Shown: positions 1-50,099 of the stretch, piece by piece | Numbering within the stretch: position 1 is the stretch's first letter | Layout: each line of letters begins with the position of its first letter | From: Pyropia yezoensis | Taxonomy: Eukaryota; Rhodophyta; Bangiophyceae; Bangiales; Bangiaceae | Assembly (NCBI GenBank): GCA_009829735.1 | Contig: CM020618.1 | Coordinates: 14,800,568-14,864,567 of the forward strand | Direction of reading: 5' to 3' | DNA: 64,000 bases | Notes under the pieces: model-generated | Database searches by the model: none | Told to the model about the DNA's origin: nothing | Seen by the model: only the letters and a program-made list of their open reading frames with translations | Program-made: the position numbers and the translations under genes

Positions 1-993
1 CGCACGGAGCCCATGGAATTAGGGCGCCCAGCTGGCTGACGAAGTGGGGTCACCGCCCACCCATTGGCCCACCCCGGGGTGGCGACAACCATCATGGGAT
101 GATCCCAGGCGCTCTACGTATCCCGACGCACACACCCCCGGGTGGGCGAGGAGGCTGGAGAGACCAACTGTGCGCTGGCACACCCGCCCGCGGCTGACAA
201 GGTCGCTTGGGCGCGCCCGAGGCAGCCACCGTCCTAGTGACAATGACGGTTGCCCACCCCCGCCACCCGTGCTGGTCATTGCTGCAGCCGTGGGGTGGAG
301 GAGAGCTCACAGCGCACTGCACACAGGGGGGCCCCGGTTGATGGGCGTGCCGTGGATCGGTTGGCCCATATCACGGTCATGGTCAGCAGTGACAGCAGAC
401 CCAGTTCTTGTCAGAGCAGTTGATCCTCCTGTTCAATCCCAGACGGCCGCGTTGCGCACGCAAGGAGGCTCCTGGAAGAAGCTCTGACCGTACAGTATTT
501 GACAGGTCCCGAGGCAGCTTACAGCCGGGAGGGGACCTGCCCACGGAGAAGCACTCCGTGCAGCTGCTGCGGCGTTCAAATCACAGCGCCCTTCTTTCAC
601 TACGCTACCAACCTCCCTTCCCTGTCCCGCCCTCCTCAGGCCTCAAACCCAGCCCCGCTACACTCACCTCGCTCTCCTGCCAACCCCATCACCCCCTCAC
701 GCCCTTCCTCCCGCCGCTGCCGAGCGCACTGCTACAGGTCCCCAGTCGGTGTCGCCGCCCCAATACCAGCCGACACCGTTGCCGGCTGCCCTACGACAGC
801 CGTGCCCCCAAGTCATGCAGGGAAGGAGACTAAAGGCTTGAGGGCCGGGTGAGCAGCACGTCTAGCATGGGCGGTGGGGGCGCGGGCCGAACAACAGGGT
901 GTCGGCTTCTGTCATCGCCGCCGCTCCCACCACCCCCGCCGCCACCGCCGCCACCGCCGCCGCGGACGGGTCCGCCCACAGCAAAGCAGGGAC
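1..993. other. intergenic, no gene recognised
   Basis: Open frames on both strands here give only low-complexity Pro/Arg-rich translations without domain signatures. The 3' end of membrane protein gene A (minus strand) lies at the right edge. A GTACAGTA octamer occurs at 490-497. Confidence 0.5.
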
Positions 994-2262
994 TCACTGG
1001 TCGCCGGTCGAAGTTGAGGGCTCCGTGGTACCGCGCGAGGAAGGTGGGGGCGTCGCGCCTCGCCGGGCAGCTTCAGCGGCAGTGCCCCCCCCCGGTGGCT
1101 GGGCCGGCGGGGCCGCCCCCGCCGACGCCACCGGCGTGGTCCAGGCCGCCGCGGGGGGCGCCGGCGTCCAGGGTACCCCCGCGGCCTGCCCGCCCGGGTG
1201 GCCTGGCGCCACGGCGCTGACCGGGGGAGGGGGAAAGGGTAGTGACGCCGGGAGGGGGGGTGCGCTTCCACGCTGCCCCCCCTCGTGCGGCCCGCCCTGC
1301 CCGCCATCCGCTTGTCGGCGGCGCTTGCGCTTCACCACCATAACGACGGTCGCGATGGCAGCGGCAACAACCGCCAGGACAGCGAGTACGACGCCAGTGA
1401 TGGCGCCACCTGATAGCTCGTCCCCGTTGTCGTCAGGGGCCGCCCTGCCGGTCCGCCCGCCTGTGCCCGTGTCCCCGACGGGAGTGCCACCGCCCGTGTC
1501 CCCGCCGGGAGTGCCACCGTCCGTGTCCCCGCCGGGAGTGCCACCGCCCGTGTCCCCGCCGGCGGACGCCACCGGCAGCGCACTGTAAATGCACTCAATA
1601 CGTCCCGGAAAGGTCACCATCATGTGCCGGTGCCCCGCGGGGAGCGTCGTCACGTCCCCCGAAGGTGCGCTCACGTCAAGGCCGGCGTCACCAAAGTAGG
1701 CGACGGCGGTGGGCCACCACGAGCCCAGCCCAGCACAATTCCACGTAGGCATCCGGAGCCCAACAAGCGCCGCCCATTTTAGCAAGCCTGCCGACCACTC
1801 GTCGCTTGTCAGACCTTCGGCGATGCCAGCGTGGCCCAGGCGGGCCATGACAGTGTCCGACAGCAGCGTCTCGACGGTGACAGCGAGGAGGCCTCCCGCC
1901 TGGCACCTGACGTCTTGCTCGCGGATGGCGTCACCAGCGAAGAAGCGCGCGTCGCTCGGCGGCACGTCTGGCACGGCGGTGCCGGAGCCGAAAATTATGT
2001 CCCGCGGGCACGCTGTGCCGTTCCGCTGCCACTTGCGATGGAATTGGACGCTGCCAATGGCGGTCACCTCCAGGGCGCGCACCGCGAGTGCAGGTAGACC
2101 GAGGGGCTCCCCGCCCGGGACGGACACCACCGCCGCGGCCACCGCCGCCGACGCCAAATTTGAAGTGGCAATGGAAGCCGCAGCAGCCGCGGCGGAAGCC
2201 GCCGCTAGTGCCAATCTGCCGCTCAGTCGCGGCGTGCGCCGCCCTCGGAGGTGGGAGTCCAT
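994..2262 (-). CDS. membrane protein A, member of an unrecognised three-gene paralogous family
   Basis: The frame gives 422 residues from an ATG at 2262 to a TGA at 994-996. Order of parts: basic start, Ala-rich hydrophobic segment (about 17-48) that could be a signal peptide or anchor, an ectodomain (about 60-230), a repetitive stalk built on GDTGGGTPG units (235-270), one transmembrane helix (about 288-310), a KRKRRR stop-transfer cluster (311-316), and a Pro/Ala-rich tail. The ectodomain shares VRALEVTAIG, CQAGGLLAVT, GLRMPTWNC, TTLPAGHRHM and IECIYSA with proteins B (3940-5562) and C (7293-8594). Cys85, 120, 176 and 224 fall in the aligned blocks. The layout implies a type I surface or endomembrane protein with the ectodomain outside the cytosol. 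I do not recognise the domain. The gene is head-to-head with B, 1.7 kb away. Function unknown. Confidence 0.8.
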   Translation of the reverse strand: MDSHLRGRRTPRLSGRLALAAASAAAAAASIATSNLASAAVAAAVVSVPGGEPLGLPALAVRALEVTAIGSVQFHRKWQRNGTACPRDIIFGSGTAVPDVPPSDARFFAGDAIREQDVRCQAGGLLAVTVETLLSDTVMARLGHAGIAEGLTSDEWSAGLLKWAALVGLRMPTWNCAGLGSWWPTAVAYFGDAGLDVSAPSGDVTTLPAGHRHMMVTFPGRIECIYSALPVASAGGDTGGGTPGGDTDGGTPGGDTGGGTPVGDTGTGGRTGRAAPDDNGDELSGGAITGVVLAVLAVVAAAIATVVMVVKRKRRRQADGGQGGPHEGGQRGSAPPLPASLPFPPPPVSAVAPGHPGGQAAGVPWTPAPPAAAWTTPVASAGAAPPAQPPGGGTAAEAARRGATPPPSSRGTTEPSTSTGDQ

Positions 2263-3354
2263 GGCGCGCTGCGCGTGGGAGGATCGCGCGATCGCACACC
2301 GTACCGGCTGCTACACGGGGCAGCACAGCGGGACTGGGGGCGCGGTGAGCGACGTCGGGGTGACGGACGAGGTGAGAGTAGGACGGGGGTGGCGGAAGAG
2401 TGGGGGGGGGGGCACCTGAAGAGGGGGCGGCCTCGCACCGCACGCGCGTGGTCACCTTGCCTGGCGCGCCGGGTCTGCTGGCCATGCACAGGCCCACAGG
2501 CGGTTGTGGCTCCCTACCCTGCGCTGCGTGATGTCCACTGGGCGAACTGGATGGCAGTCGCTGTGCTGTATCCCCGCCCTGTTTGCACCACTGCCATGTC
2601 GGGGTCGACCGACCGATTGGCGGCTGGCTTGTCGGCGCAACCGACCAGAGTGCAGGGGGCTGTGGCCTGCCAGTCCCAATTGCGACGGCCAAAGAAGAAT
2701 ACAAGGTGTAGCGCCCATCCACCCCTGTCATCCCCGGAGGACTGACAGGCGCACCACAGGCCCCTGTCCTAGGCCAGCGTGCCGCGGATCGTCTGTCCGT
2801 CGATTAGACCAAGCATTGAGGAGACGAGCCGACCTGATTGGTCTTTACACTTGATCCTCGAGCCCCTTCCTGTCCAGTCACAGACGGCTTCGCTGTAGAA
2901 GAAGGCTGACCAACCTGGCTCGGGAGAAGCGCTCCCTCGCTGGGGGCCCAACCAAAACGCAGCGCGAGCAGCAGCGCCCTCCAACCCCCCCCTCTTCAGC
3001 AGCGCAACGCAGCGTATGCCTACTCTCGTCAGACGACGGCTGCGAGCTCCATACTGTCTTGTACATACTGTACAGCAAGGGCTGTGTCCATGTGCTGCGC
3101 TTTTCGCCAGCGCAGTCAGCGAGGCGGGCGAGGGGGTGTCTCCAGCCAGGGTGGATGACGCGCGCGGGGCCTGTCCTATCCCACCCCCCCGGCGGTCGGC
3201 TCGGGCGAGGCCGACCCCGTCAGCCAACGATGCATGCACACTAAGCAAGCCAAAAAAACACATTCATATATTTTTCCCCTCCTGTTTCCAGAGCCCTCCA
3301 CGGGTCGCGTGGCTGGCCGCCCAGTCGGAGAACGCCACCCCGCGAGACAGGTAC
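2263..3354. other. intergenic between divergent genes A and B, left part
   Basis: This is shared upstream sequence of two divergently oriented paralogues. It contains a TACTGTAC octamer at 3066-3073. No credible coding frame or RNA gene was seen. Confidence 0.5.
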
Positions 3355-3454
3355 CTGTGATCCCGACTGGATTGGAGCACCCACCTACTGTAAGTGGAGC
3401 ACCCACCTCTATCATATTATGTAGGTGATTGTTCAAATCCAGTCGGGATCACAG
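3355..3454. mobile_element. 100-bp foldback/MITE-like element
   Basis: Terminal arms 3355-3373 and 3436-3454 are perfect 19-bp inverted repeats beginning CTGTGATCCCGACTGG. With mismatches the pairing continues inward through CACCTA/TAGGTG to about 33 bp. The centre carries a direct duplication of GGAGCACCCACCT at 3374-3386 and 3396-3408. No target-site duplication is clear. It sits about 490 bp upstream of gene B. The size and structure suit a non-autonomous DNA element; the family is unknown. Confidence 0.6.
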
Positions 3455-3939
3455 CGGGCTTCCTGCGGGGTCTCTCGCGGGCAGTCCCGCCAATAATACT
3501 GCATGTACGGTACAGGAAGAGAGCAACGCGAAGATGGGGGCTTGCTCCAGCTGAAGCCACAAGCACGCACCGTACGGTCTGTACATATGTACAGTATGTA
3601 CCAACATGGTGGCACACACCGAAAGGGTCAAAGGGCAAGGTGGGGGGGTAGGAGTTGCGACAGCAGAATGCCACAATCGGGACGCCCAGCCGGGGGATAT
3701 CACGCAAAACACGCGGGAATCACGCAGCACACGCCGGGAGCTGCCTCTGCTCCCGCAGCCCCGAAGCACGCAGGTGCGGGGAGCAAGGCCGCCGCCCCCT
3801 TCCTGGAGTGCACGCACCGCCGTGCGACAACCCTCCCCCCCCGCCCCCACCCACCCGCGCGCGCTCCACCGGTGCGCCCGGGACGTCAGAGCACAGGGCG
3901 GGGTGGCACGAGCGGTGCCTCCCCCCCGGCAGGCGCGCC
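3455..3939. other. upstream region of gene B
   Basis: Contains a GTACAGTA octamer at 3589-3596 embedded in several GTAC-rich steps (3505-3600), then a C-rich stretch leading to the start of gene B. No TATA box is obvious. Confidence 0.4.
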
Positions 3940-5419
3940 ATGGACTGCTGCCACCGCCGCCGACGACGGTGGACGCTGCGGACAGACGGCATGGGCCGGG
4001 GGGCGGCGGTGGCCGCCGCCGCCACCGCCGCCGCCGCCATTACCGCCGTGGCCGTCGTGACCGCGGCGGCAGCGGCAACGGCGGGGGTGGCGGCGGCGGC
4101 GGCGTCGCCACCGTCTGGCACGGCGGCGGCCCCGTTCGTCCTGCCTGCCCCGGCGGTGCGCCGCGCCCTGGATGTGACCACCATTGGCGGCGTCGTGTAT
4201 GCCCTGCGGTGGTACCAAAGTCCGTGGATGTGTCCCTTGACCTTTTTCATGGGCAACGGCGCTGCCGTGGCTGGCGTGCCGGCCGACGGCGTGCGCCTCT
4301 TTCCCGGCACCGCCATCCGAGAGAATGGGTCCGTGTGTGCGGGCGGAGGCCTCCTGGCCGTCACGCCCGACACGCTGCGGTCGGTAGAGGTGATGAACCG
4401 CCTGGGAGAGCCCGCCGCCACCGCCCGCCTGACGGGCGACCCGTGGTCGGCACAGGCTTTGAACTGGTCATTGGCGGTTGGCCTGCGGATGGGCAGCTGG
4501 TCGTGCGGGGGGTGGAACCCGTGGCCGACCTCCGCCGTCGCCTTCTTTGGCAACCGCTCTGCCCGCGTGCAAGGCGCCCCGGGGGAACCGACGACGACGC
4601 TTCCCGCGGGGCACCGGCACCTGCTCGTGACGATCCCGCCGTCCATTGAGTGCATGTACAGTGCGCCACCCGTCGGGCAAGGCGCCGGCGGCGGCGGCGG
4701 CATGGGCGGTCCCGCCGGCGGCCGCGGCGGGGACACGGGCCCAGACGGCCGCGACGGGGACACGGGCCCAGACGGCCGCGGCGGGGAGGTGGGCGCCGGC
4801 GGCGTGCCGCGGGGCGCCCTCATTGGCGTTGCCGTCGCCGCGGTGGTGGCGGTCGCCGCCGCCGCCGGCGCGGTGCTGGTCATGTGGCACAAGCAGCACC
4901 GCCGCGGGACGGCCGGCGGGCAGCTGCAGCAGCAGCAGCAGCAGCAGCACACGGCCGGCGCGGGCGCCGGTGCGGCGCCCCCGCCGTCGCCCTCTCCCAC
5001 CGCCGTCGGGGCAGCGGCGGCGGGCGGCCGTCCCGGGGGGGGATCCCCGCACGCCCCGCGGCGCGCCGCCCCGCCTGCTGGCGTCGCTGCCCAGTGGGGG
5101 GGGGGCCCGGCGGGGGCCGTTGCGCCGCCGACAGGCGCCGATGGTGTCTCTCCCGTGGCGGCGTCAGCCGCACCAGCGACAAGCGCCCCCGCCTCGCGGG
5201 CGGCAAACGTGCCGGCGGTGACTGCGGCGGCGGCGGCGGGGGCGGCGGCGGCGGCGGGGCGCCCCCCCCCCCCGACGACGTCGGCCGCGTGGGCGGCAGC
5301 GGATGGGAGCGCCGCCGCCGCCGCCGCCCCCATCGGTGGTGGCGGGGGCGCCTCGATGGGCGGCACCCGTGACACGGGCGCACCTGCGGGGGATGCGAGC
5401 GCAGCCGACATGGATGGCG

Positions 5420-5453
<34 letters not shown>

Positions 5454-5562
5454 AGGGAGACGGGACGATGACGGTGGCAGCGGCGGCGGCGGCCGCCGGC
5501 GCCGCCCCGACCCGCCGTCGACGCCGCGTGCCGCGCCCGGCGTGTGGCGCACCGTCGCGTAG
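3940..5562 (+). CDS. membrane protein B, member of an unrecognised three-gene paralogous family
   Basis: 540 residues from the ATG at 3940. This start is chosen because its MDxxxRRRxWTL opening aligns with the start of protein C; the frame itself stays open about 95 codons further upstream. Parts: basic N-terminus, Ala-rich hydrophobic segment (21-56), ectodomain (about 70-245) with Cys98, 133, 189 and 238, a collagen-like GDTGPDGR repeat (264-281), transmembrane helix (292-315), and a long cytoplasmic tail with a glutamine run near 4921-4950 and many Ala/Pro/Gly runs. Shared motifs with A and C are CAGGGLLAVT, GLRMGSW, TTLPAGHRHL and IECMYSAPP. The tail is far longer and more repetitive than in the paralogues and is rich in GCG/GGC triplet repeats, so its length may vary. 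Function unknown. Confidence 0.8.
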
Positions 5563-7292
5563 GACCCGCTGCCGGCGACGGCGGCGGACCTGACCCTCCG
5601 CAGCCGCTCGGCCATAGACACGGGCGGTGGCCCGTCGCGAGACGCGCCCGAGTGGGGCGGGGGGGGGGGGGTTGGGGGCGTGGCACCCGCGAGAAAAACT
5701 GCGGGGGGGGGCGGGGGGGGGGGGGGGTTGCATGAGGGCGGATGGGCGTGTGGGAAGTGGGAAGATGGGGAACCGAGCGGGGGGGGGTTGGCGTGTGCGG
5801 TGCGTCTACTGTACAGAGATTGAATTGTCAATGGTGGCTGTCGTCTGGTTCAGCCCACCGTTTCGAGGCATTGGCGGCGCCTACCCCCCCCCCCCCCCCC
5901 CCCCTCCCCACAATAAACTCGTCCTATCGACGAAGGCCCCCCACCCAGGGAGCAAGCGGCCGTCTGGTGGGGACCTCGGCCCGTGACGACCGGCGAGTCG
6001 GCACCCTGGCCGCGCCGGCCGGGCGGCTGTCCAGGCCCGTCCGCGAGGACGGCACCGGCGGCCGCGCCCACCCACGGCGCGCCACCCTACCGCAGCGACT
6101 GCCGAGTCGATGGCGGCCGGCAGGAAAACGAGAGCAGGGCGGGCGTGGCGGGACCGCTGCGGCTGTGGCCACTGCAGCACAGCAGCTGCCGGTTCCACGC
6201 ATGGCTTGACCCTCCCCTCCCCCCCCCCCCCCCCCCCCCCCCCCGGTCGGTCGACCAGCAGCCACAACAGCCTAGCCGCCAGCTTCACACACATGCACGC
6301 GTCGGGGGTCCATATGGAGCAGGCAGCGGGGGGGGGGGGGGGGGTGGGGGGGGGGGACGGCCGCTGGCGGCCAGTGGCGGCAGCACCACCACCAAAAGCG
6401 GCAGCTCCACTAGACTCAGCGGCGCTCGGCACCGGCACCAGGTGCAGCCCTGCAGCAGCAACAGGCGCCCCTCTCCCCTCCCCCTTTACCGTGGCAGCGG
6501 CCGGTGCGAGCGTCCGTCCACCTGCGCGTCGGCGGCCGCGAGGCAGGTCAGACGCCGCCGCCGCCGCCGCCGCCGCCAGGCTGGCCCCCCGCCCCCCACA
6601 CCCCCAGACGACCCTGGAGAGGCTGTGGTCCAGCGATGGACCAACGGTGCAAGGTGAACAGAGCCGAAGGCGACATGGCCAGGGGGCGGCGGGCGGCGAC
6701 AACGGAACGGTCCGGCGCCGTCCCCGCCATACCGTCGCAGTCGTCTGGGCACCTAGCAAAGGGTGCGCTCGAGGCTTTCCCCCCGTGCCCTCTCTCGGAC
6801 TGCTATGTATGTATGTACGTGTGGGTCCATGCGGCTCTCACAGCTGCCCCCAGCACCAACCAAACAAACACCCACTCTCTCACGGGCAGACACTGACCAC
6901 TCTGCGGAATGGAGTCGGACGCGAGGGGTCAGCCTGAGCGGCATCTTCAGGCTCCCCTCACCACCGTCAATGACGCATGTTCGCCTCGGGCGTCACGCGT
7001 GACACCGGCTCCCCTCAGCGCGCACGGCCACACGGACCCATGGCCCAATCCCATTCAAGGGCATCTATGAGAACACCAGAAGGGGGGGAAGGGGACCACC
7101 AGGAGGGCACAATAACGGCGCCCCTGTCCCTGTCAGCCCAGAACTTTATCACGCCGCCCAGACCATCGCCGCCGTTCCCAACACGACAGGCACCGGCATC
7201 TGGCAGAGCTCGAAAACCCACCGCCCGTTGCTTGTTGCCAACGCCGCCACCAGCGCCACCGACCTCGAGGACGATGGCAGTACACCGGCTCC
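5563..7292. other. 1.7-kb intergenic region between convergent genes B and C with G/C homopolymers and a duplicated block
   Basis: Long G or C runs lie near 5650-5670, 5701-5728, 5886-5907, 6220-6245 and 6330-6355. An AATAAA at 5912-5917 could serve as a polyadenylation signal for gene B. The stretch 5965-6060 aligns without gaps to 15905-16000 (GACCTC.., CCAGGCCCGT, GAGGACGGCA), so it is part of an old duplication. A short TATG repeat is at 6803-6816. No gene was recognised. Confidence 0.5.
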
Positions 7293-8594
7293 TCACGGAT
7301 GGGGTACAGACCCGCTGTCGACGAGCTGCCCTAGCTCCTCAATGTCCGCAGTCGACCACAGCTCCGGGGGCAGCGACGGCGGGGGGCCTGGCATCGAGTC
7401 TGTTGGCCCCAGCGCCGTCCCCTCTGGGGGCTCCACGCAGCTTGGCGTTGCTGCTTCCGTCGGCGCCGCGGGCGCCCCCTCGGCCGCTGCTCCCGCTCGG
7501 CTCCCCGTCCCGCCCACTGTCGTCTCGGCCGCCGGTCCCGACAGCGCCGGCACTGGCGGCGGGGGCGGGGCGCGGGGGAGCCCGCCGCTCCTCCGGCCTC
7601 CCGCGCCTTGCCCTCCGCCAGACGCCGCTAGTGCGCGGTACTTGCGCCACACAACCACCGTGACGGCGGCGGCAGCGGCAAGGCCTACCGCGGCGGCAAC
7701 GGCCACGCCAATGAGGGCGCCCAGCGGCACGCCGCTGGCGCCGGCAGAGCCAGACGCGCCAGCGCTTTCGTCTGGGCCAGGCTCCCCGACGCGACCGCCG
7801 CCGTCGGCGCCAGGGCCTGCGCCGCTCTGGTCGCCGCCACTATCGCCGGGGCGCTCGCCCCCGGCCGGAGGCGCAACCACGGTTGCGGGCGACGCACTAT
7901 ACGCGCAGAGGGACCTGCCTTTGTGGGCCAAGATCATGTGCGGCTGCCCGCTTGGCAGCGTCACCCCCGACTCCCCAACGCTACCGCTCACGCGGATGCT
8001 CGTGTCGGCAAAGAAGGCGACCGTCGCATTTGGCCAAGGCTCCCAGTTTGGGCATTCCCACGTGCCCATCCGTACGCCGACCACCGCCGACCAGTTGAAA
8101 TAGGCGCTCACCGGCAGGAGCGTCGCGTACACGACGATCCAAGGCTCCTCCAGGCGGTCCATCATCGTTTGGTTCTGCGCCACATCTGAGGTGACGGCGA
8201 GGAGGCCCCCGCCGGAACACGCGCTCCCATTCTGCTGGATGGTTTCGCCAGGAAAGATACGCGCGGACTTTGGCGCGCCGCGCACTGGCTTGCCTCTGCC
8301 CAACCGAAAAGAGGGCGGGTACAACGGGTTGATCGACAAGCCCGTATGCCAGACGAGCCGAAAGTCCAACTCACCAATGGCTGTCAGCTCCAGAGCGCGC
8401 ACCGACGGAGCGACAAGGTCTGACGCCTTGCCGGCGGCGGCCAGCGACGGCAGCGACGACCCACCGGCGGCCGTGGCCCCCGCCACCTTTGCCGCCAGTG
8501 CCGTGACCGCCATGGCCATGGCAGCCGCCGCCGCCACGGCCCCTACCGCGCCCGTCGTCTGCAGCGTCCACCGCCGTCGGCCGGGGCGGTCCAT
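7293..8594 (-). CDS. membrane protein C, member of an unrecognised three-gene paralogous family
   Basis: 433 residues from the ATG at 8594; an in-frame ATG at 8606 adds four. Parts: basic MDRPGRRRWTL start, hydrophobic Ala-rich segment (15-44), ectodomain (about 64-236), Gly/Asp/Ser-rich stalk (245-288), transmembrane helix (292-316) ending VVVWRKYR, and a Pro/Gly-rich tail with an acidic end. Shared motifs with A and B include VRALELTAIG, CSGGGLLAVT, GVRMGTWEC, VTLPSG and CAYSA. Cys126, 181 and 230 match the last three family cysteines; the first (Cys85 in A, Cys98 in B) is missing here, so if the first Cys is disulphide-bonded that bond is not conserved. Three Asn-x-Ser/Thr sequons (NGS, NQT, NAT) are in the ectodomain. 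Function unknown. Confidence 0.8.
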   Translation of the reverse strand: MDRPGRRRWTLQTTGAVGAVAAAAAMAMAVTALAAKVAGATAAGGSSLPSLAAAGKASDLVAPSVRALELTAIGELDFRLVWHTGLSINPLYPPSFRLGRGKPVRGAPKSARIFPGETIQQNGSACSGGGLLAVTSDVAQNQTMMDRLEEPWIVVYATLLPVSAYFNWSAVVGVRMGTWECPNWEPWPNATVAFFADTSIRVSGSVGESGVTLPSGQPHMILAHKGRSLCAYSASPATVVAPPAGGERPGDSGGDQSGAGPGADGGGRVGEPGPDESAGASGSAGASGVPLGALIGVAVAAAVGLAAAAAVTVVVWRKYRALAASGGGQGAGGRRSGGLPRAPPPPPVPALSGPAAETTVGGTGSRAGAAAEGAPAAPTEAATPSCVEPPEGTALGPTDSMPGPPPSLPPELWSTADIEELGQLVDSGSVPHP

Positions 8595-9421: not shown

Positions 9422-12400
9422 TCACCCGTGTACGGGGGTAGCCACCGCCACCCCCAGACCCTCGCGGAAGAGGGTGAACGCGTCGCGCGGTAGCGGCTTG
9501 GTGAAGCCGTCGGCGAGTTGCTCCCCCGTTGGCACGTAGACCACCACCACCTGCTGGGTCGCCACGCAGTCCCGGATAAGGTGGTAGCACACGTCGACGT
9601 GCTTCGTACGGGGGCTCATCCCCTCGTTGTTAGCCATGGCGATGCAGGCCTGGTTGTCCTCCTTCAGCGTCACCGGCCCGGCGTACTCGCCCAGGTCGCC
9701 CGCCAATCGCCGCAGCCACAGGCTGTCCTTGACCGCCTCGGCCGCGGCGACGTACTCGGCGATCGCCGTCGAGGTGGCCACCAGCCGCTGCATGCGGCTG
9801 CGCCACGAGATGGCTCCCCCGTGCAGCGTAACCACAAAGCCCGTCGTCGACTTGCGGCTCTGGGTATCTCCGGCGAAGTCCGAGTCCACCCACCCCTCCA
9901 GGTTGGCCTCCTTGCCGTACGTGATGCCCATGTTGCGCGTACCCTGCAGGTAGCGCAGGACGCCCTTGGCAAGCCGCCAGTCGCCCTCTGTGGGCGCCGA
10001 CATGCGGCGCGCCAGCTTGCCCACGGCGTAGGCCAGGTCGGGCCGCGTCTGGTTGCTCAGGTACATGAGCGACCCATAGAGCTCCGCGTAGCGGTTGCCG
10101 GTCGGCAGGAGCTCGCCCTCGGCCAGCTCCACGCCACGCGCCATGGGGGTGAAGTTGGGCTTGCACTCGTCCATCTCGTACTCCTTGAGCAGGTCCGCCG
10201 TGTGGCGGGGGTTGGACAGCGTGACCGTCCCCGCCGCCTTGTCCCATTCCACCTGCATCCCTAGGTACGACGTCACCTCCCCCATGTCCCGGCACTCAAA
10301 GTGCCGCGCGATCCTGCGCTTGACGTCAGCCACGGCCTCCGCGTCGGGGCCGCCCGGGAGGATGTCGTCCACGTGCACATTCACGTACACGGTCGTCCCC
10401 TTCATGGCAAAGGTGTAGAGGCACTTGTCGGCCTTAGACTGCACACCGCCTTTCTGCGTCAGCTTCCCGTCCAGGTGCTTCCCCCACAGGTTGCCCGCCT
10501 GCTTGGTGCCGTACATCGCCTGCTGTAGCAGGGCATCCTTGCCGGCACCCTCAAAGCCCTCGGGGATGACGATGTAGACCTCGACGTCCATCGGTGCATA
10601 CAGGTACGCCGTCTTAACGTCGATGTGGTGGACGGTCCAGCCACGGGCCGCCGCCGTGGCGAAGAACGCTCGCGTCGTTGCCGCCGCAGGCATGGCCGCC
10701 CACGACTGCAAGTAGTCATTCCCCGGCTTCTGGCGGTCGCCCCTCCCTACCAGCCGGCACTTGCGCCGCTGCAGTACGCCCCTCTGGTCCGCCTTGCACT
10801 CAAAGATGACCCTGGTCCCCTGCCGACGCGCGCCCGGCGGCGCCTTCTTCTTGGTCCACACCTTGTGGGTGATCATTGACTGCCGCTCATCCTCGAGCGC
10901 GGCCTCCCACATGGGCCAGTCATCGCGGCAGCTTGCCTCCTCCACCGTCTTGGGCGGGGGCGGCAGGTCGCGTACCATCACCGGCTTTTCGACAGTATCG
11001 GCGGTCTGGACCGCCGCCGCGCTGGCCGAAGCGCCAGCACCGTCCTGCCCAAACCGCACAGGCGGTAAGCGCGCGCGACCCGGGTACCGGGTCACCTCGT
11101 CCTCCTCCTCGGAGGTCGACTCCCGGCCGTCATCGGCCAGTTGGCCAGTCACCAGCCTCGCGGCGTCGATCGCTGCTTGGACGTCGGGCGTAACGGGGGC
11201 CCCACCCCCTCGGTCCGTTGAGCTTGTCGACGTCGAGGGCGTGAGCGTCGGGGTCGGCTGCGGGGTCGGCACGGGCGTAGCCTCCTGCGCTCCCCCGTCC
11301 TCCCCGCTGGGGGCGCCGGTCAGGGCCTGGCTCCAGTGGACCCTTTTGGCGGGGGCGGCGCTCTCGGCCTCCTCCACCACCACGTCCCGGCGCTCGACCA
11401 CTTCCTTTGTGCTGTTGAGCAGTAGGCGGAAGCCTTTGCCGCCCGCCGTGTAGCCCACCATCCTGCCGGCACTCGTGCGCGGCTGCGTGCCCTTGATCTG
11501 CTTGGGCGGCTTGAGGGCGTACGCACGACTGCCCCACACCGCCAATCCCGAAACGTCGGGGCGCTTACCGGTGAACCCCTCCCACGGGGTGACGTCTTGC
11601 CCCTCTTTGGGCGAGCGGTTCATCACATAGGCGGCCGCCACGGCCGCCTCGGCCCACAACTCCTCGTCGAGGCCCGACTCGGACAGCGCCGCACGGACGC
11701 GCTCCTTGATAGTCCTGTTGACCCTCTCCGCCTTCCCATTGCTCTGGGGGCTGTAGGGGAGGGTGACCTCGTAGTCGATGCCCTTCTCCTCGTACCACTG
11801 CCGCAGCTTGGCCGTGGTGAACTCCTTGGCACCGTCGAAGCGGATCCGCTTCAGCTTCTTGCCGCTGCGGCGCTCCCACTCGGGGATCTTCCCCCGCATC
11901 ACCCTCCCCGCCTCACTCTTGGCGCGGATGGGGACGGCCAGCGTCATGCCGGTGCTGTCCTCGTAGAGTACTATCAGGTAGCGGGACCCCGACGGCGACT
12001 TCTTGAACGGCCCCGTGATGTCCACATGGATGAGCTCCATGACGTCCGTCTTGGAGTTGGACGCCGGGAAGGGGGCCTTCACCGTCTTGCCCTCAACGCA
12101 GGGCCGGCAGATGGCGCCCGCAGCCGACTCCGTCTCCACCTCCTTCTCGGGCAAGCCGTCGACCATCTTGGCCGCGCGCTGCAGGTTGTTGTAGCCGAGG
12201 TGGAAGAACCGGCGGTGCCAGATCGAGGCCGTGCCGGGCATGGGGGCGGAGGCCATCATGGCCATCTTGGCCACCGGCTTCCCACCGAGCGTGTACTGCC
12301 CGTTCCCCTCCAGGTGGCCAATGGCGTCCGCTTTGGATACCACGGCGTGGGACGCGACCGTCTTGGCCGTGTCATAGATGTCGCAGTGGCCGTTGGCAAA

Positions 12401-13627
12401 CAGCACCGCGCCGCCGGCCTTGTCCACCAGCCCCACCGACATCAGGTTCTCGCGGAGACCCGGCACGCGGTAGGTGTCCTTGAGGGTGATGGTCGATTTG
12501 TTGTCGCCGTCCCCGGCCACGAGGATGGCCTCCCCGCGACCCGTGGTCGCCAGGGTCCCCCCCGACGCCAACGTCACCTCGTCGTTCGGTTTGGCCCCCT
12601 TGGCCACAAACACCCCCTTGCCGGTCGCCAGGTGGTGGGTCGCACCCGAGTCAACCACCCACGTGTCCGCGCGCGAGTTCGCAGCGGCAGGCGCCACGGC
12701 GCCCACCCCGACGGTGGTGCAGTAGGCGAGCTTCTTGCCGCCCCCGTCACCACCCTTGTCCCCACCATGGGGGCCCTTGCCATTGCGGCCGTGCTTTTCG
12801 TTCGCGGCCCGCCGCTCGTTACAGTCGGCGATCTTGTGGCCGGGCTTCTTGCAGTAGAAGCACACCGGCTTCTTGTCCTGCTGCCCCTTCTTCTCATCCT
12901 TCTTGAGCGCCATCGCAGCCAGGTACGCCTGCACCGCCTGTGGCACGTCGTCGTCCGACTCGGCACGCAGTTCCGTCTCCATCAGCCTGTTGGTGATGGT
13001 GGGCAGGGTGAGCAACTTGCCAGAGTTCCGCAGCACCGTGCGGATCGTCTTGAAGGGCGCAGGCAAACCGCGGAGGATGTCAAGGCAGAAGCTGTGCTCG
13101 TCCTTGTTCACGCCAGCAGTGGCCAGGTCGTCGCGGATCCCCTTGGTCCGCCCGACGTACTCCATGATGGTCTCGTTAGGCTGCTTGCGCAGCGTCGCCA
13201 ACGCCTCCTCCAGCTCCCCCCGACGCGTGGCCGTCTCATGGTCGAAGAGGACGCGGAGGCACTCCCACACCTCGGCCGCCGTCTTGCAGTCGGCGATCAT
13301 GTTCATGAGATGTGGCTTGACGGCCATCTTGATCTGCGCCAAGGCCCGCACATTCTTGCGCTTCCAGACCTTGACCTCCTTGAGCTGCTTCTCGTGCAGA
13401 TCCATGGCCAGCTTCTGAGCAGCGGCGCGCGCGGCCGCCGACCCCGCCGGCTCGCCTTCGGGCGACGCAGCTGCCGTCGCCAGGGGGGTGACAACCGGGC
13501 ACGGCGTCTCGATCGCGTCCCAGGTGCCGTTGTCCTGCAGGTACGCCTCAGCGTAGTTCGACCAGCCGCGGTAGTTGCCGTCCAACAGGTCGTAGCCAAA
13601 CTCGGAGCTCCGCGTCTCGTCCTCCAT
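9422..13627 (-). CDS. copia Gag-Pol polyprotein
   Basis: 1401 residues from the ATG at 13627 (MEDETRSS); the frame is open slightly further but only with a GTG. Domains in order: Gag-like N-terminus; CCHC zinc knuckle (C256-x2-C-x4-H-x4-C269); aspartic protease DSG (326-328); integrase zinc site HHCC (H471, H476, C507, C510); integrase catalytic D536, D598, E634 with D-35-E spacing; reverse transcriptase with HVDD (1085-1088) in place of the usual YVDD; RNase H with WVDSD (1246-1250) and later acidic residues. Protease, integrase, RT, RNase H is the copia order. No stop or frameshift occurs, so it is probably recently active. The product would form cytoplasmic particles and integrate cDNA. 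Confidence 0.95.
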   Translation of the reverse strand: MEDETRSSEFGYDLLDGNYRGWSNYAEAYLQDNGTWDAIETPCPVVTPLATAAASPEGEPAGSAAARAAAQKLAMDLHEKQLKEVKVWKRKNVRALAQIKMAVKPHLMNMIADCKTAAEVWECLRVLFDHETATRRGELEEALATLRKQPNETIMEYVGRTKGIRDDLATAGVNKDEHSFCLDILRGLPAPFKTIRTVLRNSGKLLTLPTITNRLMETELRAESDDDVPQAVQAYLAAMALKKDEKKGQQDKKPVCFYCKKPGHKIADCNERRAANEKHGRNGKGPHGGDKGGDGGGKKLAYCTTVGVGAVAPAAANSRADTWVVDSGATHHLATGKGVFVAKGAKPNDEVTLASGGTLATTGRGEAILVAGDGDNKSTITLKDTYRVPGLRENLMSVGLVDKAGGAVLFANGHCDIYDTAKTVASHAVVSKADAIGHLEGNGQYTLGGKPVAKMAMMASAPMPGTASIWHRRFFHLGYNNLQRAAKMVDGLPEKEVETESAAGAICRPCVEGKTVKAPFPASNSKTDVMELIHVDITGPFKKSPSGSRYLIVLYEDSTGMTLAVPIRAKSEAGRVMRGKIPEWERRSGKKLKRIRFDGAKEFTTAKLRQWYEEKGIDYEVTLPYSPQSNGKAERVNRTIKERVRAALSESGLDEELWAEAAVAAAYVMNRSPKEGQDVTPWEGFTGKRPDVSGLAVWGSRAYALKPPKQIKGTQPRTSAGRMVGYTAGGKGFRLLLNSTKEVVERRDVVVEEAESAAPAKRVHWSQALTGAPSGEDGGAQEATPVPTPQPTPTLTPSTSTSSTDRGGGAPVTPDVQAAIDAARLVTGQLADDGRESTSEEEDEVTRYPGRARLPPVRFGQDGAGASASAAAVQTADTVEKPVMVRDLPPPPKTVEEASCRDDWPMWEAALEDERQSMITHKVWTKKKAPPGARRQGTRVIFECKADQRGVLQRRKCRLVGRGDRQKPGNDYLQSWAAMPAAATTRAFFATAAARGWTVHHIDVKTAYLYAPMDVEVYIVIPEGFEGAGKDALLQQAMYGTKQAGNLWGKHLDGKLTQKGGVQSKADKCLYTFAMKGTTVYVNVHVDDILPGGPDAEAVADVKRRIARHFECRDMGEVTSYLGMQVEWDKAAGTVTLSNPRHTADLLKEYEMDECKPNFTPMARGVELAEGELLPTGNRYAELYGSLMYLSNQTRPDLAYAVGKLARRMSAPTEGDWRLAKGVLRYLQGTRNMGITYGKEANLEGWVDSDFAGDTQSRKSTTGFVVTLHGGAISWRSRMQRLVATSTAIAEYVAAAEAVKDSLWLRRLAGDLGEYAGPVTLKEDNQACIAMANNEGMSPRTKHVDVCYHLIRDCVATQQVVVVYVPTGEQLADGFTKPLPRDAFTLFREGLGVAVATPVHG

Positions 13628-48684: not shown

Positions 48685-50099
48685 TCAAGGGGGGGCCATC
48701 GCCGCGCGCGCCAGCCCCACCGGCAGGGCCGTCGTGTAGGACGACACCAGCACCCCATCCACCACCAGCTCCCCGCTGGGGGCGTGTGGGATGTACAGTA
48801 CAGGCCCGCCGCTGTGCCTGCCGCGGGCGCCCCCACCCTCACCACCAGCCCGGCCGTCGCTGCCGCAGCGCCACATATGACCCCGCCGAGGCCGCGTCGC
48901 GGTATGGAAAGAGCACCACTGGCTCGTCCGCGGGGCCCGCCGCGCCAGACGCCTCGGATGGAGCCGCAGAGACGCGGACGCGGAGGTCTGCTACCCGCTC
49001 CGGCCCCGCGCCCGCCCCCTCTACAACGACAGAAGCCCGGAAGCATGCCGACGCGACCGGGACGGCTGCAAGGGAGATGCCAGTCTCCCTTTGCCCACTC
49101 CTCGCCCACCGGGGTAGCTCCTCCGCCGCCGCCTTGCCCATCCCCGTCCACCTCTACCGACGCACCGTACACACACGACCTTCAGGTGGTGTCGGGGAAC
49201 TGGAAAGGAAGGTGGAGGTATCGTGTGGCGGCGGTGAGTTCCACGGCGACCACCCCCTCCCCCACCGTCAGCGTGTCGCCACCACCAGACCAGTATGCCA
49301 CCGCATTTCACCAGCCACGCCAAGCGGACACGCGTGAAGGGCTCCGTCACCACCCCACACGAGAAAACGTTGCATCAGCCGCCTTGAGCACCTCCGCGGT
49401 GGCGCCGTCCACCCCGTCAGCGGTGCCGGGCAGCGCGGGCGCTACCTCCCGACCGGTCGCACAGGCCGCCCCATCCACCACCAGCGCGTCTGCTGTGAGG
49501 GTCGTGAGGGGGGCCCCATCCCCACCGCCCCCGCCGCCGCCGTCCATGACCACCGTCCGGGGGCACCCCGCCGGCGGCCCTAAGGGCCAGCGCCCACGAG
49601 GCAGCCACCGCCAATGGGTCCCCGGCTTGGTGGACGGCCGCCGCCCCGAGCGCGGCGGCGGGAGTGGTGGAGGGCAGGGGGGGGGGGCCGCCGCCAACTC
49701 CGCCGACGGGGAACGTGGGCAACGCGCGCAGACGCGACACGGAGGCGGCCGCGGCGGCGAGCACCGCGCGCGGCGACGGCGGCGGCTGCCGGGACCGTCC
49801 GCCAGCGGCGGCGTGTCACTGCCGGCGGCGCGGCAACCGGGGCGGCCGGCGGCGCGGCAGCCGCATCCGCGGGCAGCGCGGCAGACTCGACCGGCGGCGG
49901 GGGCGGCGGCAAGGCAGCCGGCAGCGGCGACGAAGGCCCGGAAGCAGCTGCAAGCGGCGGCGACGGCACGGAAACAGCCGCAAGCGGCGGCGACGGCACG
50001 GAAGCAGCCGCTTGCAGCGGCGGCGGCGCACAACCCCCGTCGGCGTCGCGGCGGCCGCTTCGGTGGGCGGCGCAGCAACTGTTGCTTTCTTCGGATCAA
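48685..50099 (-). pseudogene. decayed coding sequence, unknown; C-terminal piece Hint-like
   Basis: On the minus strand a plausible protein can be followed only by changing frame several times: LTADALVVDGAACATG.. to KAADATFS (about 49370-49510), then VVTEPFTRVRLAWLVK, then GDTLTVGEGVVAVELTAATR (about 49215-49280, followed by TGA), then VADLRVRVSAAPSEA..VVLFPYRDAAS (48870-48990), then VLYIPHAPSGELVVDGVLVS (48690-48800). Each segment is compositionally balanced, unlike the neighbouring shadow frames. The last segment resembles the end of Hedgehog-type Hint domains (LY.PHT..G.LVVDGV..S.YT). The catalytic Cys start of a Hint domain was not found. Either a pseudogene or a sequence with indel errors. 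Low certainty. Confidence 0.35.

Follow-up and report, generated by a model that had tools for sequence, protein, structure and literature searches.

The window analysed here is a 64,000-nucleotide stretch of the Pyropia yezoensis genome (C1:14800568-14864567), near the start of which lie three genes, A, B and C, that share an ectodomain of about 170 residues. They are Hog-free relatives of Hog proteins, i.e. proteins carrying a Hedgehog-type Hint module. Each consists of a single open frame. Gene A (P0001; 994-2262, minus strand) encodes 422 amino acids (aa), laid out as a signal region, the ectodomain (1573-2079, L005:1516-2022, minus strand; 169 aa with four cysteines in the joint alignment), a GGDTGGGTP stalk, a transmembrane helix (core 1333-1395, minus strand; hydropathy 2.93) and a Pro/Ala tail. 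Gene B (P0002; 3940-5562, plus strand) encodes 540 aa, with the ectodomain at 4162-4671 (plus strand; 170 aa, four cysteines) and a helix core at 4819-4881 (plus strand) located by hydropathy scan. Gene C (P0003; 7293-8606, minus strand) encodes 437 aa, with an ectodomain at 7887-8399 (minus strand) of 171 aa and three cysteines, the first having been lost, and a helix core at 7650-7712 (minus strand), again from the hydropathy scan. Translation of C may start at its second methionine, at 8594, which aligns with a methionine of the C-like cluster gene L012.

The first-pass annotation, made from the letters of the window alone, described A, B and C as three clustered paralogues, and this description stands: the frames are intact, and, aligned end to end, the B ectodomain shows 48% identity to that of A and 44% to that of C. 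The cluster actually comprises five genes of mixed orientation, because two further members adjoin the window on its left (C1:14794685, plus strand, and C1:14799175, minus strand). Alignment likewise confirmed the ectodomain of about 170 residues with the motifs quoted by that annotation, as well as its cysteine pattern, with cysteines 2-4 invariant in A, B and C and cysteine 1 found in A and B, not C. The end that the annotation gives for the group, 8594, falls at the second methionine of C rather than at the end of its frame. The repeat stalk attributed to all three proteins was recovered only in part, a regular repeat being clear in A and not in B or C. Beside gene C, an uninterrupted frame of 1401 aa (9422-13627, minus strand) appears by eye to be a Copia-type retrotransposon polyprotein.

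The C-terminal transmembrane helix proposed for the three proteins is upheld by hydropathy, by flanking charge and, in A, by structure prediction. An uncharged hydrophobic 21-mer with a mean hydropathy of 1.9-2.9 follows the ectodomain in 21 of the 24 full open reading frames (ORFs) of the family that lack Hint, and the net charge of the adjoining 15 residues in these 21 proteins averages +3.9 after the helix and -0.14 before it. One helix thus follows the ectodomain with its positive side predicted inside, as in a type I single-pass protein. AlphaFold, which was given three sequences from the window, models full-length A as a folded domain with a low-confidence stalk and tail (mean predicted local distance difference test score (pLDDT) 58.2, predicted template modelling score (pTM) 0.44) and an isolated helix at residues 286-319, the core of which has a pLDDT of about 65-72. 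The 25 Hint-free ectodomains contain 51 N-glycosylation sequons, against a mean of 18.8 and a maximum of 32 in shuffled sequences, while 21 tails contain three; this pattern fits a domain that faces outwards.

The 193-residue stretch of B that contains the ectodomain is predicted to be beta-rich with central helices (pLDDT 77.9, pTM 0.79), and a Foldseek search found no solid fold match. A Pfam scan of A, B and C identified no domain, only two sub-threshold matches of A at its helix, and a profile search of the PDB with the three proteins gave nothing below an E value of 0.026, mostly at the helix. Protocadherin and APP, which arose in the sequence and fold searches, were rejected as their matches fall at the helix, as was Rab-7L1, matched at E 0.29 or worse. 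Scans of prokaryotes and of viral contigs, each based on two short patterns, gave 53 and 8 matches, none of which was confirmed by tblastn as a bacterial, archaeal or viral-contig relative. These results support an uncatalogued Cys-containing ectodomain carried by single-pass membrane proteins.

Homologues are found well beyond these loci. Searching the 107.48 Mb genome with the B ectodomain recovered, besides B itself, 36 places at E <= 1, with E at or below 4.5e-4 for 31 of these, and a divergent member used as the query recovered 36 places at E <= 0.1. Five such searches pooled give 63 places, 43 Hint-free and 20 Hint-linked, all counts of this kind being lower bounds. Among the Hint-free places 37 of 43 have E <= 3.4e-4, including a decayed Hog copy in the window. 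Certain other copies are fragments or bear stops, and two sets of near-identical fragments were seen (C1:12271995 with C2:8358617; C2:8396519 with C3:9801902 and C2:26828307), mostly on different chromosomes, as if copied recently.

The distribution of Hint modules places the ectodomain in a wider context. When above-cut-off Hint pieces are joined, the genome contains 77 Hint/Hog loci, and at 20 of the 63 ectodomain places a Hint follows downstream on that strand, no more than 3 kb away, in 18 cases with the same open-frame length. The best E value is 5.3e-6 or lower for 16 of these 20, mostly against Hog-linked queries, and three are queries themselves. For three weak matches of the B ectodomain search, the open frame that holds the match also encodes a Hint module. 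A profile of the 25 Hint-free ectodomains matches 11 of 23 regions upstream of Hint in the same frame at E < 0.01 (Z = 10,000), whereas the 483 controls, reversed or shuffled, never fall below E 1, the best of them being 3.4. Four of the 23 were preselected, namely L063, L064 and L066, found by the ectodomain searches, and the weak match L092; without them seven of 19 match, these 19 having been picked from among the higher entries of the Hint list. In alignment of profiles with hhalign, 21 Hint-free domains against nine Hog-linked ones give E 1.1e-17 over 161 columns, where 20 column-permuted controls and one reversed control reach 0.098 at best, L015, L018, L023 and L027 having been excluded beforehand from the membrane set and L077, L085 and L091 from the Hog set. 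Used as a single-sequence query, the Hog-linked L063 domain matches both B (E 2.9e-4) and L016 (E 1.6e-4). The nine Hog-linked domains all share four cysteines; in the 21 Hint-free ones three are invariant and one nearly so.

The two sets are therefore homologous, and the outer domain belongs, to judge from these alignments, at the N-terminus of a group of this alga's Hog proteins. The earlier statement that it could not be placed in any family holds in that no described domain family was matched, and fails in that the domain now has this placement. A, B and C themselves lack a Hint module in the Pfam scan, and no Hint place lies near the five cluster genes. One extracellular domain thus comes in two architectures, a Hog type, predicted to be cut and lipidated, and a single-pass membrane type. 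On an unrooted tree of 37 domains, the architectures need two changes, against a mean of about 10 when shuffled. Eleven of the 12 Hog rows group together with support of 88/88 (not starred), L085 standing elsewhere on a very long branch, and a single change separates the two sets in only 11% of bootstrap trees. The window itself contains a decayed Hog-type gene (48715-49580, minus strand), in which three in-frame stops interrupt what is left of the ectodomain (56% identity to that of L066) and Hint-like remnants occupy two other frames. The front part differs in other Hog proteins encoded by this genome: it is imelysin in L088 (E 7e-12), DOMON in L089 (E 5.9e-7, below the Pfam cut-off) and a weak FG-GAP in L080 (E 4.3e-4, also below the cut-off).

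The Hint modules of L063, L064 and L066 match the Pfam Hint model above its cut-off (E 1.6e-23 to 5.2e-27; 83.9-95.3 bits against 29.7) and match solved Hedgehog Hint chains in single-sequence searches. The catalytic cysteine (C258) and the TxxH motif are kept in all three, these being the Hints that were read. The HH_signal domain gave no match in the genome, and its controls gave none either.

The tails had been thought to have diverged freely, which the wider family shows to be partly wrong. A proline-leucine motif, P[PSGF][MLIPV]P..L, lies no more than 45 residues from the end in 15 of 23 tails, compared with a mean of 0.22 and a maximum of 3 in 2000 composition-preserving shuffles, and the residues preceding the membrane helix of the Hint-free ORFs also look conserved. 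The match printed for the tail of C is PGPPPSL, and an overlapping segment, PSLPPEL, also conforms to the pattern; the tail of B has no motif, nor does the printed tail of A near its end. A short last intron may, to go by its splice sites, change the C-terminus of A: an in-phase GT...AG intron at 909-997 leading to a candidate last exon at 830-908 (minus strand) would give a protein that ends in ...PAPPPPMLDVLLTRPSSL, which is similar to the tail motif of the family, and two neighbouring acceptors give a similar end.

A codon model gives a ratio of nonsynonymous to synonymous substitution (omega) below one in 11 of 12 family pairs (p <= 0.00026), some of these having saturated synonymous divergence (dS). 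As the B ectodomain also matches many places in the genome, the frames are not due to chance, and the possibility of orphan or artefactual ORFs in GC-rich DNA is ruled out by the genome-wide family and this constraint. Count-based dN/dS values are nearer one than those of the codon model for A/B (0.74), B/C (0.83), A/C (0.80) and L010/L011 (0.59), and reach 2.74 for C/L012. This last pair was chosen once counts had been screened for 10 pairs; its ectodomain omega under the codon model is 2.29, with an uncorrected p of 0.011 that is not significant when corrected for 12 tests. A wider cut of the ectodomain gives 1.70 (p 0.042), the helix 0.23 (p 0.043), the signal region 0.87 and the stalk 10.4 (p 0.0057, on an unreliable alignment), with signal, stalk and helix combined at 1.17; gene conversion may contribute to all of these values. 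Selection favouring change in the outer domain is thus no more than suggested, and only for the single pair of C and L012, the other 11 pairs being under purifying selection.

The arrangement that would accommodate these observations is as follows. A, B and C would be type I membrane proteins, in which a signal region directs secretion of a beta-rich domain of about 170 residues, the conserved cysteines of which would form disulfides; after it would come a flexible stalk rich in Gly and Asp, then a single helix and, in the cytoplasm, a disordered tail rich in proline. The other set of proteins begins with the same outer domain but has a stalk and a Hint/Hog module in place of the helix and tail. 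The Hint cysteine would attack the preceding peptide bond, releasing the outer domain, which would probably bear a sterol or similar lipid at its C-terminus. Hog-type members would then act as released or lipid-tethered partners in cell-surface recognition, and membrane-type members as receptors or tethered partners, the conserved tail motif passing contact to the cytoplasm. The balance tips slightly towards the family being a cell-surface recognition or signalling pair system of this seaweed. The narrower proposal of Hedgehog-like signalling by ligand and receptor paralogues, with a self-cleaved, sterol-tagged domain binding the like domain on a receptor whose tail signals, is unlikely.

A number of observations count against such a pair system. 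In three of the 24 Hint-free full ORFs (L015, L018 and L023) the open frame encodes no helix; two of these, the sisters L015 and L018, have a good ectodomain and are possibly secreted, or else their helix is in another exon. The 12 Hog-type ectodomains contain 15 sequons, against a shuffled mean of 12.8, so lack the enrichment of the membrane set, and although a hydrophobic N-terminal stretch is present, the calling of signal peptides was visual. At four of the 20 Hint-linked places the best E is only 0.016-0.44, and the whole family analysis concerns one genome. The tail motif is absent from eight of 23 tails and its excess is only descriptive, because the pattern was written after the tails had been inspected. 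Patched, for which Pfam finds three loci in the genome, lends the system weak support, since the profile also matches bacteria and archaea. In fly Hedgehog, D303 is the general base for sterol; in all three Hints read this position is a histidine, and that of C400 (SCYA) is an alanine or threonine. The best structure match of L066 is a D303H crystal structure, 6TYY. As the fly D303H variant retains activity and accepts a wider range of sterols, according to the review PMC9163320, a sterol or like adduct on the Hog-type ectodomain is plausible by analogy. A Patched-domain frame of 1164 aa (domain at C1:40899075-40899686, plus strand) was also observed to lie about 4.4 kb from a broken family member and 31 kb from a stop-free one (C1:40904094 and C1:40930430, minus strand).

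Other functions could be served by the same proteins. They might be structural components of the cell wall or matrix, the domain binding wall polysaccharide and the Hog module or helix acting as anchors without any signal. The low-complexity Gly/Pro stalks would suit this, as would the varied front parts of the three other Hog proteins scanned, and a 2026 Plant Cell paper includes construction of the extracellular matrix among possible roles of Hog outside animals; yet an anchor needs no conserved motif at its cytoplasmic end, such as 15 of 23 tails have, and the ectodomain omega above one in the C pair also argues against it, so that this explanation is considered somewhat unlikely.

The mixed orientation of the five-gene cluster, the near-identical and broken copies elsewhere and the contrast in C/L012 between ectodomain and helix would instead be consistent with receptors for self/non-self or microbes, in which tandem duplicates diversify by positive selection and Hog-type members serve as secreted partners or decoys. 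Set against this are the omega below one in 11 of 12 pairs, the failure of the C/L012 result to survive correction for the 12 pairs, and the combined value of 1.17 for signal, stalk and helix, which implies that the contrast rests on the helix; such receptors seem quite unlikely. It is very improbable that the outer domain carries a lipid or small molecule in the pocket of a calycin-type barrel, be it lipocalin, streptavidin or FABP-like.

The family has partial parallels in the literature. Burglin (2008, PMC2362128) reports Hog ORFs from Porphyra yezoensis and P. haitanensis in which a region ahead of Hog is conserved, a region said there to have no match in other organisms; the Hog-type members described here are of that kind, and that region may correspond to the present domain. 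In the accessible parts of the open-licence literature, no description was found of red-algal membrane relatives that lack Hog. The 77 Hint/Hog loci may be set beside the 58 Hedgehog-related genes of C. elegans, three of them pseudogenes and many Hog-free (PMC2362128). Expanded Hog families are also known from red algae in the kelch-Hint (K+H) proteins of Cyanidiophyceae, several of which are expressed mainly in haploid cells; there the front part is reported as kelch or no known domain, rather than this ectodomain (PMC9812998 and PMC13353863).

Nematode Warthog and Groundhog, with the Wart-only, Ground-only and Ground-like proteins, resemble the present family in having an N-terminal domain that is joined to Hog in some proteins and is found, many times over, in others that lack it. 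The domain is a different one, by name, and most Hog-free members here have a helix, many with the tail motif. In Nematostella, the outer domain of a Hog protein likewise occurs on a Hog-free membrane protein, Hedge-VWA-cadherin, although this is a single large adhesion protein with an SH2 end rather than a multigene family of small proteins. That protein is known as Hedgling.

These proteins are thus better described as a Hog-associated ectodomain family with a lipid-route and a helix-route architecture. About 20 Hog loci share the front domain with some 36 Hog-free places, and the intact examples of the latter mostly have a helix and tail. The family also provides natural Hint modules with a histidine at position 303, the change that widens sterol use in the fly enzyme. 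Hog proteins are widespread outside animals, where the 2026 Plant Cell paper calls their function unknown; in a multicellular alga that is grown as a crop, the family with its shared front domain would offer a concrete candidate for the side of the partner or receptor.

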